From positions 1 to 44,487 of IMG/VR virus record IMGVR_UViG_3300011114_000625: a stretch of DNA of 44,487 nt. One strand, given 5' to 3'. Positions 9,666-29,518 of this stretch are shown piece after piece. The position numbers were made by a program, and so were the translations under genes. Each line of letters begins with the position of its first letter. The stretch's first letter is position 1. Source of the stretch: a virus. A model generated the notes under the pieces. It did no database searches, was not told the DNA's origin, and worked only from the letters and a program-made list of their open reading frames with translations.

Positions 9666-10332
9666 TGTCCCACCTACAAAGCATCAGATTGCAACGGTTT
9701 GTCTCACTGACAGGTTCCATTGTGGTTGTGCATTTCCCATGTTCAGACACATAAGCAAAGTCAAAACCGACAAAATCTTTTTCTGTCAAACCATGCAATC
9801 TATGATGTTCACCCCAAAAACCAACAGGCTCATTATGCGGAACACTAATCAGCAATCGCTTGCAATGTTGTTTAAGTCTTTCAACAACTTCAAGGCCATT
9901 GTCTAAATGCTCAATGACCTCAAAAGCCAAAATAGTTTCATGTTCCAACAGTTCATAGGTATTGATGTCTGCATGTACAAACCATCGCTTCAATCCCCAA
10001 TCTTGTTCTTTTGCCGCATCAATAATGATGGGGTCGTAATCAAGTCCAAGATAATTTATTTGTTGAGGGAAGAATTGCGTACCGTATCCAGTAGAGCAAC
10101 CAATCTCCAACATTGAGTTTCCGCATAGGTGTTGGTTTGCCCACATGTATCGAGCAGCTTCTCTAACGTGGACTTGATCGCCCTTGAGAAATACTGCACG
10201 TTCAAAGTTGTTGGTCAGTCGCCAACGATACCAATCAGGATGATGCTCTTTAGCAAGTTTTAGTACATGAATATCTAAGATTTTTTCCCATTGCGTTGCT
10301 ATGTCAAGTCCATACAATTCTTTGCTTTTCAT
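9658..10332 (-). CDS. SAM-dependent class I methyltransferase, 224 aa
   Basis: Motif I is LEIGCSTGYG at about 75-84, followed by YLGLDYDP (acidic motif II), an ADINTYELL strand and FEVIEHLDNG, the usual motif IV/post-IV of small-molecule or sugar O-methyltransferases (Methyltransf_23-like). No DNA-methylase catalytic motif (DPPY or PC) is visible, so DNA is not an obvious substrate. Its place directly before two glycosyltransferases and after the collagen-like fibre suggests methylation of a glycan or protein on the virion. The start overlaps the fibre stop by 4 bp. Confidence 0.8.
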   Translation of the reverse strand: MKSKELYGLDIATQWEKILDIHVLKLAKEHHPDWYRWRLTNNFERAVFLKGDQVHVREAARYMWANQHLCGNSMLEIGCSTGYGTQFFPQQINYLGLDYDPIIIDAAKEQDWGLKRWFVHADINTYELLEHETILAFEVIEHLDNGLEVVERLKQHCKRLLISVPHNEPVGFWGEHHRLHGLTEKDFVGFDFAYVSEHGKCTTTMEPVSETNRCNLMLCRWDNE

Positions 10333-12674
10333 TTTTCTCCATTCAACTTTTTCAATTCCAATTCAAGGTTAATAACTCGTTGTGCGAGTTGGATACATGC
10401 TACCAAAGCCGCATTGCCATATGCCAATGACAACATGCCATCTTCTTTTACTCCCACTGCTTCAGGCAAAAACTTTTGAATATCTTGAGCCGAAGCGCCA
10501 ACTTGACGGGCTGTTGAGTTGATGTGATCGTAAGTGCCGTGTCTGACAGTAGCCAATTGATCAACCAAATTGATATTTAAATCAGCCCAGTTTGATTTCA
10601 GTCGCTCATCGGATGAGCCTGTGTGCGTGACAGCACTCAAGTCTCCAGTTGATGGCGTGAAATAGACTGCCGAAGTTGTTGAAACAGTAGGTGTTTGATT
10701 GGAGCCAGCCGCAGCTACACCAACCACATATTGAGTGGTTGCAGCAGTGCTTGCAGTTGCATTGATAGCAGTACCTGGGCCAGTGCCTCCAGTGGCTCCT
10801 GAATATCCAGAATACCCAGAAATACCGGAATATCCAGAAAAACCGGATGTGCCATTTGTGCCATTTGATCCACTGTAGCCACTGAAACCAGATGTACCGA
10901 CAGCGCCTGAATAACCGCTAAATCCAGAAGTGCCTACAGCACCGGAATACCCGCTAAAGCCGGATGTGCCAACAGCGCCAGAATATCCACTGATGCCAGA
11001 ATAACCGGAAATTCCTGAAAATCCTGAAGTGCCAACGGCTCCTGAATATCCGCTTATTCCAGAAAATCCAGAATAACCTGAAGTACCAACAGCGCCTGAG
11101 TATCCACTGAATCCAGACGTTCCTACAGCGCCAGAGTAACCGCTGATGCCAGAAAAGCCTGAATAGCCAGAAACGCCAGAACCTGAGTAACCAGAAAATC
11201 CAGATGTGCCGACAGCACCGGAATATCCAGAAATGCCGCTGTAGCCCGAATAACCGCTATAGCCACTGTATCCCGATTGGGTGTACATGACTTGTGTGGC
11301 AGTCACAATCAAAGAAGGAATTGCCGGACTGATACCACTGGCAGCAGTGTAGTCAAGACCAATACTGGTATTGTTTGTTGACCAAACCAACTCAACGTAA
11401 TCATTTGCAGTCAATGACAATACAAAATTCCACGCTGGAACTACATACGGGTTATTGGTTGGGCAAGTAATCTTTGTGTCAGTGTCTGGAACATTTGCGC
11501 CGTTTTTACGCAACCAAATATTGACAATTTCTCCAGAACCGCCGCCAGAATTGTTGTGCAATTGAGCAGAAAACTGAAGGTCATAAACGCCAGTATTTGC
11601 AAATGTAATTTGTGAACTTGAAACAATAGAAACGCCGCTTGAATCGGGGTCTGTGTTGTTTAAGGTCATTGCATAGGCAGTGTGGATTGCCGCTGCTGTT
11701 TGACTTACCGTTGACCAAAAAGATCCCCAGTAACCTTGTGTACCGCCAGCACCAACTGCACCCGAGTACCCGCTATATCCTGACGTACCTGAAAAGCCCG
11801 AGATGCCGCTGTAGCCGCTAAATCCTGACACGCCGCTACCTGAGTACCCAGAGTATCCAGAAAAGCCGCTTACGCCCGATCCTGAGTAGCCAGAGATCCC
11901 AGAAAATCCACTTGTTCCGGAAAACCCAGAAATGCCAGAAAAGCCTGAATAGCCAGATATACCGGAATACCCTGAAGTACCCACAGCCCCGCTGTATCCA
12001 GAATAACCTGAAGTACCTGACGCACCAGAATAGCCTGACACACCGCTTCCGGAAAAACCTGAGTATCCGCTTTGACCGCTAAATCCACTGATTCCTGAAA
12101 AGCCGCTAATACCTGAATATCCGCTGGCTCCGGAATAGCCTGATGTTCCAACAGCACCGCTGTATCCGGAAGCACCAGAATAACCAGAAATGCCTGAATA
12201 GCCACTTTGACCAGAACCTGAAAACCCACTGAGGCCGGACGCACCGCTGTAACCTGAATATCCGCTGTAACCAGATGTGCCAACTTGACCAAATAAACCT
12301 GGAACCGTCCATGTCAAAGGATCTGTATTTCTAGAATTGACAAGTGTGATTGATACCCAAATTTGATCAGGGTATGTAACTGATGTCGGTGGTTGTGATG
12401 TCCATCCAGACGGGGCAGTACCAGAGTTTGTTGTAAAGCTCCATGAGCCACCGGTCGGAGTTGCTGGAGCAGTTGCGGCTACTTGAAAAACAAACCATTC
12501 AAAGTATGAGCCGCCAAAGGTAGTACCGCTGCCATATAAACCGGCTGATTCAGAACCTGGGGATGCCACAACAGAGCCATTAGGGCTCGTACCATACAAA
12601 CCAGGCGTTGCAGCACCAGGTTGTGCAATGATTGCTCCATCTCCACTGCTTCCATAGAGGCCACCTGTTGCCAT
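10329..12674 (-). CDS. collagen-like tail fibre with C1q/TNF-like domain and S74 chaperone, 781 aa
   Basis: Order of parts: an N-terminal head with three GLYG repeats (1-50); a small beta domain (about 55-125); a collagen-like Ser-Gly-x block (about 130-305); a jelly-roll, C1q/TNF-like domain beginning GYWGSFWSTVSQTA (about 312-455); a second Ser-Gly-x block (about 460-655); a linker; and a C-terminal intramolecular chaperone of the Peptidase_S74 type (about 686-781) starting SSDERLK with the Ser and Lys of the self-cleavage site. The repeats use almost only Ser, Gly, Tyr, Phe, Ile, Val, Ala and Thr, with no Pro or Lys. S74 domains trimerise fibres and are then cut off. Ribosome site GAGGTAAAAC precedes the ATG. 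Confidence 0.92.
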   Translation of the reverse strand: MATGGLYGSSGDGAIIAQPGAATPGLYGTSPNGSVVASPGSESAGLYGSGTTFGGSYFEWFVFQVAATAPATPTGGSWSFTTNSGTAPSGWTSQPPTSVTYPDQIWVSITLVNSRNTDPLTWTVPGLFGQVGTSGYSGYSGYSGASGLSGFSGSGQSGYSGISGYSGASGYSGAVGTSGYSGASGYSGISGFSGISGFSGQSGYSGFSGSGVSGYSGASGTSGYSGYSGAVGTSGYSGISGYSGFSGISGFSGTSGFSGISGYSGSGVSGFSGYSGYSGSGVSGFSGYSGISGFSGTSGYSGYSGAVGAGGTQGYWGSFWSTVSQTAAAIHTAYAMTLNNTDPDSSGVSIVSSSQITFANTGVYDLQFSAQLHNNSGGGSGEIVNIWLRKNGANVPDTDTKITCPTNNPYVVPAWNFVLSLTANDYVELVWSTNNTSIGLDYTAASGISPAIPSLIVTATQVMYTQSGYSGYSGYSGYSGISGYSGAVGTSGFSGYSGSGVSGYSGFSGISGYSGAVGTSGFSGYSGAVGTSGYSGFSGISGYSGAVGTSGFSGISGYSGISGYSGAVGTSGFSGYSGAVGTSGFSGYSGAVGTSGFSGYSGSNGTNGTSGFSGYSGISGYSGYSGATGGTGPGTAINATASTAATTQYVVGVAAAGSNQTPTVSTTSAVYFTPSTGDLSAVTHTGSSDERLKSNWADLNINLVDQLATVRHGTYDHINSTARQVGASAQDIQKFLPEAVGVKEDGMLSLAYGNAALVACIQLAQRVINLELELKKLNGEK
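10795..11275. repeat. collagen-coding minisatellite, block 2
   Basis: Degenerate 9-base units, on the plus strand variants of CCAGAATAT or CCGCTGAAT, encode Ser-Gly-Tyr/Phe/Ile/Val triplets of the fibre gene. Longer higher-order units containing the Gly-Ala-Val-Gly-Thr break recur several times. Such arrays can change length by slippage or recombination. Confidence 0.85.
11755..12290. repeat. collagen-coding minisatellite, block 1
   Basis: Same kind of degenerate 9-base coding repeats as the downstream block, separated from it by the C1q/TNF-like domain of about 480 bp. It encodes the first Ser-Gly-x shaft of the fibre. Unit variants such as Ser-Gly-Ser-Gly-Val-Ser-Gly interrupt the triplet rhythm at several places. 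Confidence 0.85.
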
Positions 12675-26293: not shown

Positions 26294-26578
26294 ATGAATA
26301 GCATTGAATCTTGGAAAGACTACACCCACACAATTGAAATTGCAGGACATGCATTGTTTGCTGTTTGCAAATCGATCATGACAGTTGAAGAATTGCTTGA
26401 ATGGAAAAATGGTAGTTCAGCAAATAATTTCATTGATGCAAATCAAGTGCTAATTGATATCCTTGATGATCTGGGTATTGATATTGATATTGAAGATCCT
26501 GAAATGAACAAGCTTTGGCATGATTGCTGGAATAAAGCTATTGCCTTGAATCAATCTAAAAACTACATGGGGGAATAA
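26294..26578 (+). CDS. hypothetical acidic protein upstream of the methyltransferase, 94 aa
   Basis: Ninety-four residues, acidic and helical, with the run DILDDLGIDIDIEDPEMNKL at about 50-69. TTGGAG lies before the ATG. Its TAA overlaps the ATG of the methyltransferase gene by one base (TAATG), so the two are coupled. No family recognised. It may assist or regulate the methyltransferase, but that is only position-based. Confidence 0.7.
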   Translation: MNSIESWKDYTHTIEIAGHALFAVCKSIMTVEELLEWKNGSSANNFIDANQVLIDILDDLGIDIDIEDPEMNKLWHDCWNKAIALNQSKNYMGE

Positions 26579-27585
26579 TGAATGAGTTGGCTCTTTTCTC
26601 AGGCGCTGGTGGAGGAATTCTCGGAGGTAAATTGCTTGGATGGCGCACCATCTGTGCAGTCGAGTGGATGCCCTACCCAAGTAGCGTATTGTGTGCCAGA
26701 CAAAATGATGGCTTTCTCGAAAGCTTCCCGATCTGGGATGACGTACAAACCTTTTCCGGAAAACCGTGGCGAGGAATTGTTGACGTTATATCTGGCGGGT
26801 TTCCATGCCAAGACATCTCAGTTGCCGGTAAAGGAGCCGGTATCGATGGAAAACGATCCTCCATGTGGAGCCATATGGCAAGGATCATTGATGAAGTACG
26901 ACCTCAATACGTCTTCGTGGAAAACAGTCCAATGCTCGTTAGTAGAGGACTCGACAAGGTCGTTGGCGACCTTACCGAAATCGGGTATGACGCTAGATGG
27001 ACAATTATGGGCGCTTCCGATGTTGGAGCGCCGCACCAAAGGAACCGGTTCTGGATGGTGGCGCACACCCGATACCGGAGCCGGAGGGACATCGGGATTG
27101 CTGAAGCAAGGCATTACCCACCGCCCCAATGGGCAACCTATCCAAGTACGTTTAGTGGATCAGGTGAACAATCCGCATTTATGGGCAACACCCACAACAA
27201 TGGATCATCTACCACCAAAGCGAGAAGAAGTTTTAAAGCGCCAATACGACAAGAATCGGGCGGGAAGAACCTCTCATTCGAATTTGAGGGAGCAAGTAGT
27301 TTATCCACCGCCCAAAGTGATGTGGCCCACCCCAGCGGCGACCGATTACAAGGGCTCAGGGAAGACGGGAACCCTCCGGGATCGGTTGGACTATGCGACA
27401 GAGCGGGGAGCGACCAAGACACGGGTTTATGGGGAACCAGCAACTACTGGGCAACTGAACCCGAACTGGGTCGAGTGGCTGATGGGGTGGCCTGTAGGGT
27501 GGAGCGACTTAAAGCAATTGGAAATGGACAAGTCCCGCTTTGTGCCGCTGAAGCTTGGCGCTACCTAATGACCCCCCCTGCCTAA
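26578..27585 (+). CDS. C5-cytosine DNA methyltransferase, 335 aa
   Basis: All main motifs are visible in order: I FSGAGGG (7-13), IV GGFPCQDIS with catalytic Cys77, VI ENSP (Glu115), VIII QRNR (154-157), a variable target-recognition part (about 165-295), and IX/X with GRVADGVACRVERL and KAIGNGQVP. It methylates cytosine C5 in a short target that cannot be read from sequence, probably to shield phage DNA from restriction. GGGGGAATA serves as ribosome site. Unusually, nearly the whole gene is overlapped by a second open frame (26582-27568) that itself looks like a real protein. Confidence 0.92.
   Translation: MNELALFSGAGGGILGGKLLGWRTICAVEWMPYPSSVLCARQNDGFLESFPIWDDVQTFSGKPWRGIVDVISGGFPCQDISVAGKGAGIDGKRSSMWSHMARIIDEVRPQYVFVENSPMLVSRGLDKVVGDLTEIGYDARWTIMGASDVGAPHQRNRFWMVAHTRYRSRRDIGIAEARHYPPPQWATYPSTFSGSGEQSAFMGNTHNNGSSTTKARRSFKAPIRQESGGKNLSFEFEGASSLSTAQSDVAHPSGDRLQGLREDGNPPGSVGLCDRAGSDQDTGLWGTSNYWATEPELGRVADGVACRVERLKAIGNGQVPLCAAEAWRYLMTPPA
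26582..27568 (+). CDS. overlapping WPTP-repeat protein in +1 frame of the methyltransferase, 328 aa
   Basis: This frame starts four bases after the methyltransferase start (ATGAATGAG), can use the same ribosome site, and stays open to 17 bases before the methyltransferase stop. The product is not random-looking. It has LTLYLAGFHAKTSQLP (68-83), SSWKTVQCSLVEDS (111-124), LPKSGMTLDGQLWALPMLER (131-150), Trp-x-Thr-Pro motifs at 160, 201 and 248, and LNPNWVEWLMGWPVGW (292-307). From memory these features belong to a phage/prophage family linked to DNA methyltransferases. Its GFHAKTSQLP is encoded by the same bases as the methyltransferase GFPCQDIS motif, which suggests the family may have arisen by overprinting. 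Expression is unproven; function unknown. Confidence 0.6.
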   Translation: MSWLFSQALVEEFSEVNCLDGAPSVQSSGCPTQVAYCVPDKMMAFSKASRSGMTYKPFPENRGEELLTLYLAGFHAKTSQLPVKEPVSMENDPPCGAIWQGSLMKYDLNTSSWKTVQCSLVEDSTRSLATLPKSGMTLDGQLWALPMLERRTKGTGSGWWRTPDTGAGGTSGLLKQGITHRPNGQPIQVRLVDQVNNPHLWATPTTMDHLPPKREEVLKRQYDKNRAGRTSHSNLREQVVYPPPKVMWPTPAATDYKGSGKTGTLRDRLDYATERGATKTRVYGEPATTGQLNPNWVEWLMGWPVGWSDLKQLEMDKSRFVPLKLGAT

Positions 27586-28370: not shown

Positions 28371-29195
28371 TCAATCCCCACAGAAACAGGCGATTGTTTC
28401 TTCTTTTTGGTCAAACATATCAATTTGGTCTTTTGCAAATTGAATCATTGACGCATAGGATGGACGGTCGGAACGAAATACCGCCCCGCTTGGCTTGGAT
28501 GCCAATGCCAATGCCAATGCCTCCATTTTTGCCCACCAGATACCACGTTCTGGCTTTTCCGCAATCAAAGATAACACTTGTGCGCCGCCTTTGAGAAAAC
28601 AAAGGTCACAATTTCCGTGCATAGTCACGCCATTCATGTTTGGCAATTCAAGGTCAAAAGATTGATTTCGCCAAAACTCACCAACAGTTTGTTTAGTTAC
28701 ACCAGCGGCAACCAATGGAATTCTTGATTTATCAGCAATCTTTGCGGCTCTGCGTTGCTCATCTGCTCGCATTCCAACCCAATCCATGTGTTCATTATGT
28801 TCCCATCCCAAAGATTTCAAATATTTGTGAATTGTGCGTATTTTTAATTCTGCCGTGCAAAATCTTGTTACTGGATTTGGCAAATAATTGCGTTTTTTAA
28901 TCAATGCTTCAAATGGTTCACCATTTCTGCTGGCGGTTTCAAATGTCACACGTTCAAAAGCCGGGTCTGCATCACGAAATTCAACCCAATGAATTTCTAC
29001 GTTCCAGTTATCAGCACAGGCTTGCACAAATCTCAAAGTTGCCTCATCTTCCTTGCCAGTATTGGCAAAACAGACGATAGCTTCGCTTGGCAGTTGCCCC
29101 CCCCCGCACTCTAATACTTTATACAACATATAAGCACTTGTGCGTCCACCGCTGAAACTAATGCATGTTGGCTCTGTAATTTTGTATGGATCCAT
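28371..29195 (-). CDS. PAPS reductase-like (PP-loop ATPase) protein, 274 aa
   Basis: The PP-loop SFSGGRTSAY is at 13-22, followed by VCFANTGKEDEATLRFV, as in phosphoadenosine-phosphosulfate reductase-family proteins. CDLC near the middle and CFCGD at the very C-terminus could form a metal or iron-sulphur centre with other cysteines. Phage members of this family are frequent; relatives act in sulphur metabolism or in DNA phosphorothioation (DndC), but no dnd partners are visible here. The start ATG at 29195 overlaps the upstream stop (TGATG). A Gly-rich linker and Ala/Leu run (about residue 225-232) is encoded by short GCCAAT repeats near 28500-28520. Confidence 0.8.
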   Translation of the reverse strand: MDPYKITEPTCISFSGGRTSAYMLYKVLECGGGQLPSEAIVCFANTGKEDEATLRFVQACADNWNVEIHWVEFRDADPAFERVTFETASRNGEPFEALIKKRNYLPNPVTRFCTAELKIRTIHKYLKSLGWEHNEHMDWVGMRADEQRRAAKIADKSRIPLVAAGVTKQTVGEFWRNQSFDLELPNMNGVTMHGNCDLCFLKGGAQVLSLIAEKPERGIWWAKMEALALALASKPSGAVFRSDRPSYASMIQFAKDQIDMFDQKEETIACFCGD

Positions 29196-29518
29196 CACAT
29201 TCTCATTTCTGCTCGAAGAGTGTATTGCTCAGTCTTCCAGACTTCCACACGCATCTCTGCTGCTTTCAACATATACCTTAGATATTCTTCTTGAATGACA
29301 GCATCTTTTAATGCTTGCAGTTGATCAATGTAGCGACCATGTGCATATGCAAATGCTTCTTGTGCGCCCAGTGTCTTTTCATCTGACTCGCTCATCAGTT
29401 GAGCTTTTACTGTCTTCAGGAATGACTCCAGATGCACCCTTGTGCCTTTTGCATTGGCATAAGCCTGGGCGTTCTCTTGAATGAATTTAATGGCTTTGTT
29501 TGGGTCAATTGCTTCCAT
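29195..29518 (-). CDS. helical hypothetical protein, 107 aa
   Basis: An almost entirely helical, charged 107-residue protein (Ala, Glu, Gln, Lys, Met), probably a coiled-coil dimer. AAGGAAAAGC precedes the ATG. It overlaps the preceding 59-residue gene by 14 bp and the PAPS-reductase-like gene by one base. Similar proteins stand near recombination genes in other phages in my memory, but I recognise no named family. Confidence 0.65.
   Translation of the reverse strand: MEAIDPNKAIKFIQENAQAYANAKGTRVHLESFLKTVKAQLMSESDEKTLGAQEAFAYAHGRYIDQLQALKDAVIQEEYLRYMLKAAEMRVEVWKTEQYTLRAEMRM

Follow-up and report, generated by a model that had tools for sequence, protein, structure and literature searches.

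Overlapping reading frames of one phage gene likely encode the two subunits of a DNA (cytosine-5) methyltransferase

The closest described systems include two DNA (cytosine-5) methyltransferases divided between two polypeptides, M.EcoHK31I and M.AquI. The small chain of M.EcoHK31I, about 176 aa long, is read from another frame inside the gene for the large chain. The two chains of M.AquI are adjacent, rather than one frame written over the other. The usual role of orphan methyltransferases in phages is protection from host restriction. To our knowledge, same-strand overlaps of ~1,000 bases with both frames under selection are rare among documented prokaryotic and phage genes. For M.EcoHK31I (YGGCCR), the account given in PMC3404938, citing Lee 1995, places motifs I to VIII and X on one polypeptide and motif IX on the other, and PMC3404938 locates the predicted target-recognition domain (TRD) in the larger chain. 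ShiLan-type hidden HNH endonucleases are encoded as a second protein within phage methylase genes, out of frame with the methylase (PMC11855218).

The DNA analyzed here, referred to as the window, is the whole of the 44,487-base virus record IMG/VR IMGVR_UViG_3300011114_000625. It also encodes an SU10-type portal protein, a large terminase, and, at 10329-12674 on the minus strand, a tail-fibre-like protein that has collagen repeats and ends in an endosialidase-type chaperone. The original prediction had described two long frames in one methyltransferase gene, the second starting four bases after the first, and their coordinates and lengths were reproduced (Table 1). The +1 frame (beta) is fully nested within frame 0 (alpha), so that both frames cover ~98% of the larger gene. 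The motifs named for the +1 product (SSWKT, LPKSGMTLDG, and three WxTP motifs, namely WRTP, WATP, and WPTP) are all present. We consider it quite probable, from sequence comparisons, that the locus encodes a two-subunit DNA (cytosine-5) methyltransferase, with alpha and beta produced from overlapping frames of one gene.

Table 1. Features of the overlapping gene pair, with positions in the window
Feature	Position	Strand	Description
Upstream 94-aa ORF	26294..26578	+	Stop shares one base with alpha start (TAATG)
Shine-Dalgarno-like GGGGGA	26569..26574	+	~3-4 nt 5' of alpha ATG, 7-8 nt 5' of beta ATG
Alpha, putative C5-cytosine methyltransferase large subunit, 335 aa	26578..27585	+	Frame 0, ATG 26578; motifs I-VIII and X; PF00145, PHROG_363, AlphaFold2 (AF2)
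Beta, 328 aa	26582..27568	+	Frame +1, ATG 26582 (4 nt inside alpha); PTP-rich presumed recognition region and motif IX; N-terminal extension; PHROG_1008
Alpha catalytic domain, residues 1-165	26578..27072	+	PCQ at 26803-26811; AF2 pLDDT mostly 80-96; same bases encode beta N-terminal extension
Beta residues 160-290, three WxTP motifs	27059..27451	+	Constrained frame is +1; alpha product predicted disordered
Beta motif IX, LNPNWVEWLMGWPVGW	27455..27502	+	Frame +1; opposite alpha GRVADGVACRVE; near-invariant in A3
Alpha motif X, GNGQVP	27520..27537	+	Frame 0; overlaps beta C-terminal tail

Alpha has the features of the catalytic part of a C5-methyltransferase. The Pfam match to PF00145 (2.4e-33) is limited to residues 4-184, and alpha also matches PHROG_363. 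Frame 0 contains motifs I, IV, VI, VIII, and X, including the PCQ nucleophile and the HxRxR motif, and PC, N116, and H153-x-R155-x-R157 are invariant in A4. It had been stated that all core motifs are present in this frame; this was wrong, as motif IX is absent from frame 0 and sits in the +1 frame. The AF2 model of the alpha core gave M.HaeIII and M.HhaI as best PDB fold matches (E 4e-12), and a confident motif X helix was predicted at the C-terminus (residues 304-331). Residues 175-305 were predicted to be disordered, with pLDDT of about 32-47 in the middle. Judged by the extent of the Pfam match and by the AF2 model, a small domain with TRD and motif IX is absent from the alpha chain.

The +1 frame is open far beyond chance. 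Randomization of synonymous codons in the window gene left it open in 0 of 2,000 replicates, with a mean of 7.5 to 7.9 stops. For relatives, we searched viral contigs with the frame-0 protein only, which is unbiased towards the +1 frame, and obtained 50 usable genes. Over the catalytic domain (first ~163 codons), the +1 frame was open in 48 of them, versus 3.6 expected under free choice of synonymous codons. It contained seven stops (147 expected), all of them in two indel-bearing genes, and the +2 frame of the same 50 genes contained 450. A separate set of 122 genes had been filtered on +1 length, and its zero +1 stops are partly by construction; statements on openness therefore draw only on the 50 genes found with alpha and on the 135 motif-defined loci described below. 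The reciprocal test of frame 0 shares the length filter, so we took from it only the expected value, 319 stops in 8,614 codons.

Selection was compared in independent pairs of relatives, codon by codon. The control was a PAPS-reductase-like gene of the same window (28371-29198, minus strand), a single gene from a different phage set. It matches PF01507 at E 4e-4, below the curated cut-off, and is common among viral contigs, with identities of up to 95%. Within alpha residues 1-160, conservation is higher in the alpha frame than in the beta frame. At a protein identity of 0.89, divergence at third codon positions was 0.27 in this region versus 0.42 in the control, and divergence at first and second positions was equal in the two genes. 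The third codon positions of alpha are the second positions of beta. Identity in the +1 frame was 0.69, 0.59, and 0.51 at frame-0 identities of 0.89, 0.83, and about 0.76, respectively, versus 0.55, 0.45, and 0.38 for the shadow frame of the control. Conservation of the N-terminal half of beta is partly forced by the highly conserved alpha frame. Over residues 161-290, amino acid identity in most blocks was 0.36-0.55 in the +1 frame versus 0.22-0.32 in frame 0, and the fastest-evolving sites were the third codon positions of beta. Nearly all third positions of codons 293-314, where motif IX lies opposite GRVADGV, were conserved in 67 sequences, as were those of several of the first 11 codons. 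These patterns indicate that the +1 frame is a real conserved coding frame and that both frames are under selection. In the middle of the gene, frame 0 is the passive frame, because the C-terminal half of beta is homologous to a segment of the catalytic frame in single-chain enzymes. The central claim of the original prediction, that the gene is dual-coding, was borne out, and none of the checks proposed for refuting it went against it: the +1 frame stays open in nearly all relatives, and constraint acts on both frames rather than on the methyltransferase frame alone.

Beta is conserved in more than 200 loci. When its homologues were searched, as had been suggested, each of 94 loci from bacteria, plasmids, and phages had them in the +1 frame of a C5-methyltransferase, as did almost all of a set of 135 phage loci; no beta without an overlapping catalytic frame was found among the 94. 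More than 100 viral contigs carry the long form, whose beta frame opens 4 nt downstream of the alpha start and spans the entire catalytic domain. This form also occurs in plasmids and phages of Leptospira, Acinetobacter, Vibrio, and Pseudomonas, and in bacterial contigs assigned to Pseudomonadota, Planctomycetota, Verrucomicrobiota, Spirochaetota, and others. These totals are lower bounds, as they come from the best 80 of at least 599 viral and of at least 342 bacterial stretches. At three loci, in Acidovorax phage Alfacinha3 (L147), Synechococcus phage Ssp-JY39 (L148), and a Sphingomonas plasmid (L139), the annotated CDS is the beta frame and the overlapping catalytic frame is unannotated. 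The Alfacinha3 CDS in the beta frame is named cytosine-specific methyltransferase.

We surveyed the placement of motifs IX and X by motif, with no requirement for open frames. The layout of the window, in which the +1 frame holds motif IX and the catalytic frame holds motif X, was found at 135 distinct loci. The catalytic frame was free of stops between motifs VIII and X in 133 of these (about 16,700 codons), and 13 of the 14 stops found lie in a single broken gene (L121). Motif X was instead located in the +1 frame, behind motif IX, at L072, L262, and L264, where the catalytic frame contained 25 stops in 700 codons. The same placement was found at L116 and L069, where the catalytic frame stops mid-gene and only after motif IX, respectively. 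Stops are thus kept out of the middle of the catalytic frame mainly so that it can reach motif X, as predicted for two complementing chains.

Single-chain relatives were identified in Gordonia phage Lton and Propionibacterium phage PFR1 (L145 and L146). Their catalytic frame contains, in order, the catalytic domain, LPTPxAxD, motif IX (L-x3-F-x-EWMMGLPDG), and motif X, and PF00145 covers the two proteins almost whole (residues 11-316 and 3-312 of 324, respectively). Opposite the linker, the +1 frame of both still contains beta-like stretches (ETW..SGMTR, and LLPTP in Lton), suggestive of a dual-coded ancestor whose parts were later rejoined in a single frame.

Several loci depart from the common layout. 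An HNH-like zinc-finger stretch (CxxC...HRHHLDxNPxNN...CxxC) lies between motifs IX and X in the third frame (+2 to the catalytic frame) at L116:3403 and L069:3645, so three frames may be used there; the L116 stretch gave no Pfam match at E 1e-3. These stretches recall the out-of-frame HNH insertions of PMC11855218. L256 has one in-frame alpha stop directly after motif VIII in an otherwise intact pair. Both frames of L121 are broken by an insert with another methyltransferase-like coding sequence. L117 has the catalytic part of alpha fused to the C-terminal part of beta, without motif X; it and L135 look like indels or sequencing errors.

Beta matched PHROG_1008, labelled 'DNA methyltransferase', at 5.5e-22. 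No match to beta was found in Pfam, NCBIfam, or PADLOC, and no PDB relative was found by phmmer with beta or with a beta profile. BLASTP of beta against the single-chain Lton enzyme was weak (E 0.017), and profile comparison was needed to align them. With hhalign, the PTP region and motif IX of beta aligned with the Lton enzyme (probability 83, E 8.5e-6); the comparison with PFR1 aligned motif IX only (probability 77). Because of the alignment with Lton, the C-terminal half of beta is assigned to the small-domain segment of a C5-methyltransferase, comprising a PTP-rich region and motif IX, and the PTP region is presumed to be the TRD. The first 150 residues of beta have no known relatives. The original prediction had viewed the +1 product as an unrelated family born by overprinting. 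The homology of the C-terminal half runs counter to unrelatedness, and overprinting survives as an origin for the N-terminal ~150 residues only, which look newly written over the catalytic domain. Beta alone was predicted poorly by AF2 (mean pLDDT 56), which would not be surprising for a subunit that folds on its partner.

The starts of the two frames were compared across relatives. The +1 ATG was kept in 112 of 118 distinct relatives. At 17 of these 112 loci, the aligned frame-0 codon is a non-start codon and alpha begins 3-6 codons upstream. Shine-Dalgarno matches of at least 4 nt were placed 6-9 nt before the beta ATG in 70 of 91 cases. Six of the 17 loci have AAGGAG or AAGG inside alpha, 6-8 nt before the beta ATG, and this points directly to a ribosome site used for beta. 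The GGGGGA of the window appears better placed for beta than for alpha. Both chains would be made from one mRNA. Since TAATG occurs at the alpha start and the spacing of GGGGGA suits beta, alpha may be initiated at ATG 26578 by termination-reinitiation coupled to the stop of the upstream ORF, and beta may be initiated directly at ATG 26582 from the Shine-Dalgarno site.

In the proposed enzyme, alpha would provide cofactor binding, catalysis (PCQ), and motif X, and beta would provide the small domain, with its PTP-motif target-recognition region and motif IX. Neither chain has the full set of motifs, so the active form would be an alpha-beta complex. We infer that both chains are made and bind each other, and that DNA is methylated by the complex. 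The first ~150 residues of beta probably arose later, as an extension overprinted on the catalytic domain. For the origin of the whole arrangement, we cautiously favor a single-chain ancestor that was split by frameshifts. Each half of the gene would then be ancestral for one subunit and newly written for the other: the first ~150 residues of beta would have been created over the catalytic domain, and the middle ~130 residues of alpha would be held open only to reach motif X. Such reciprocal overprinting over the whole length would have spread through phages and prophages of several bacterial phyla.

Three other explanations were weighed. The +1 frame could be a shadow, open because of the codon use and amino acid composition of the methyltransferase, with its similarity a by-product of frame-0 conservation. 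The N-terminal half of frame 0 is indeed highly conserved, homologous DNA will yield seemingly homologous +1 translations in any case, and even the control shadow frame retained an identity of 0.55 at its highest frame-0 identity. This explanation is nevertheless hardly credible given the excess of open relatives over expectation, the conservation of the +1 frame beyond the control, and the conserved +1 ATG. Mid-gene, conservation is higher in the +1 frame than in frame 0, opposite to the pattern of a shadow, and together with the synonymous randomization this led us to reject a shadow ORF for the middle and C-terminal parts. It is also improbable, on present evidence, that beta is a different protein (a regulator, an inhibitor, or an anti-restriction factor) that acts outside the methyltransferase reaction, with alpha active alone. 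The lack of relatives for its N-terminal 150 residues and of database matches would suit such a protein, but its C-terminal half aligns with the part of single-chain enzymes that holds the PTP and motif IX elements, alpha lacks motif IX, and beta overlapped the catalytic frame at every one of the 94 loci.

Programmed frameshifting from the catalytic frame to +1 after motif VIII, and back for motif X, would yield a single chain rather than two subunits. Single-chain relatives do exist, one shift would be enough at the five loci where motif X follows motif IX in the +1 frame, and L117 joins the two parts, though without motif X. The common arrangement, however, would need two opposite shifts, and no conserved slippery run was found near codons 138-175, where third positions are mostly 42-84% conserved outside Trp codons. 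Frameshifting also does not require a conserved +1 start of its own or an open N-terminal half, and we regard it as unlikely. Against the two-subunit reading itself stand the poor predicted fold of lone beta, which lends no structural support to the presumed recognition domain, the negative PDB searches with beta, and the placement of the predicted TRD of M.EcoHK31I in the larger chain. The share of N-terminal beta conservation imposed by alpha and the use of a single control gene also count against it.

Annotation pipelines mostly retain one of two overlapping frames. If the two-subunit reading is correct, cloning only the annotated frame would give an inactive product for many phage genes labelled as a complete 'DNA cytosine methyltransferase', and the annotated 'methyltransferase' of some genomes, such as Acidovorax phage Alfacinha3, would be the other subunit. 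The hundreds of homologues, the single-chain relatives, and the frame changes of motif X provide a natural series of frames dividing one enzyme.

The overlapping pair was not found reported in the open-licence literature on overlapping genes, phages, and cytosine methyltransferases. The original prediction had called a dual-coding gene of this length exceptional, which holds in so far as same-strand overlaps of about 1,000 bases are rare; precedent nevertheless exists in M.EcoHK31I and in two annotated phage loci. Escherichia phage K1G ('putative C-specific methylase' and 'putative Mte8-like protein') and Paenibacillus phage Diva ('g49 internal gene') have an overlapping +1 frame with a homologous C-terminal part, and their depositors already annotated both frames. 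Unlike in the window, beta starts internally in K1G and Diva, and the +1 frame is closed by stops over the first ~30-60 codons of alpha; Lacticaseibacillus and Mycobacterium phages also have an internal beta start. The K1G 'Mte8-like' ORF matches the beta profile at 4e-11, which offers at most an indirect link between beta and the chains of M.EcoHK31I.

As far as M.EcoHK31I is described in PMC3404938, the window and the 135 loci share its motif split, with motif IX in the second polypeptide and motif X in the first. The window beta is longer (328 aa) and has its own start 4 nt after that of alpha, and the TRD, placed in the large chain there, is indicated in the small chain here. M.AquI (CYCGRG), as far as its published description goes, likewise divides the catalytic motifs and motif IX between its chains; its I-VIII/IX-X split recurs at the five loci where motif X is in the +1 frame, whereas motif X is on the large chain in the window. 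Lton and PFR1 have PTPxAxD, L-x3-F-x-EWMMGLPDG, and motif X in common with the pair, all in one frame and one protein. In the ShiLan-type genes, the second frame encodes an inserted homing endonuclease, whereas here it would encode the missing part of the enzyme itself. The locus is thus best explained as a far more overlapped, nearly full-length, and widespread form of an already known split C5-methyltransferase.
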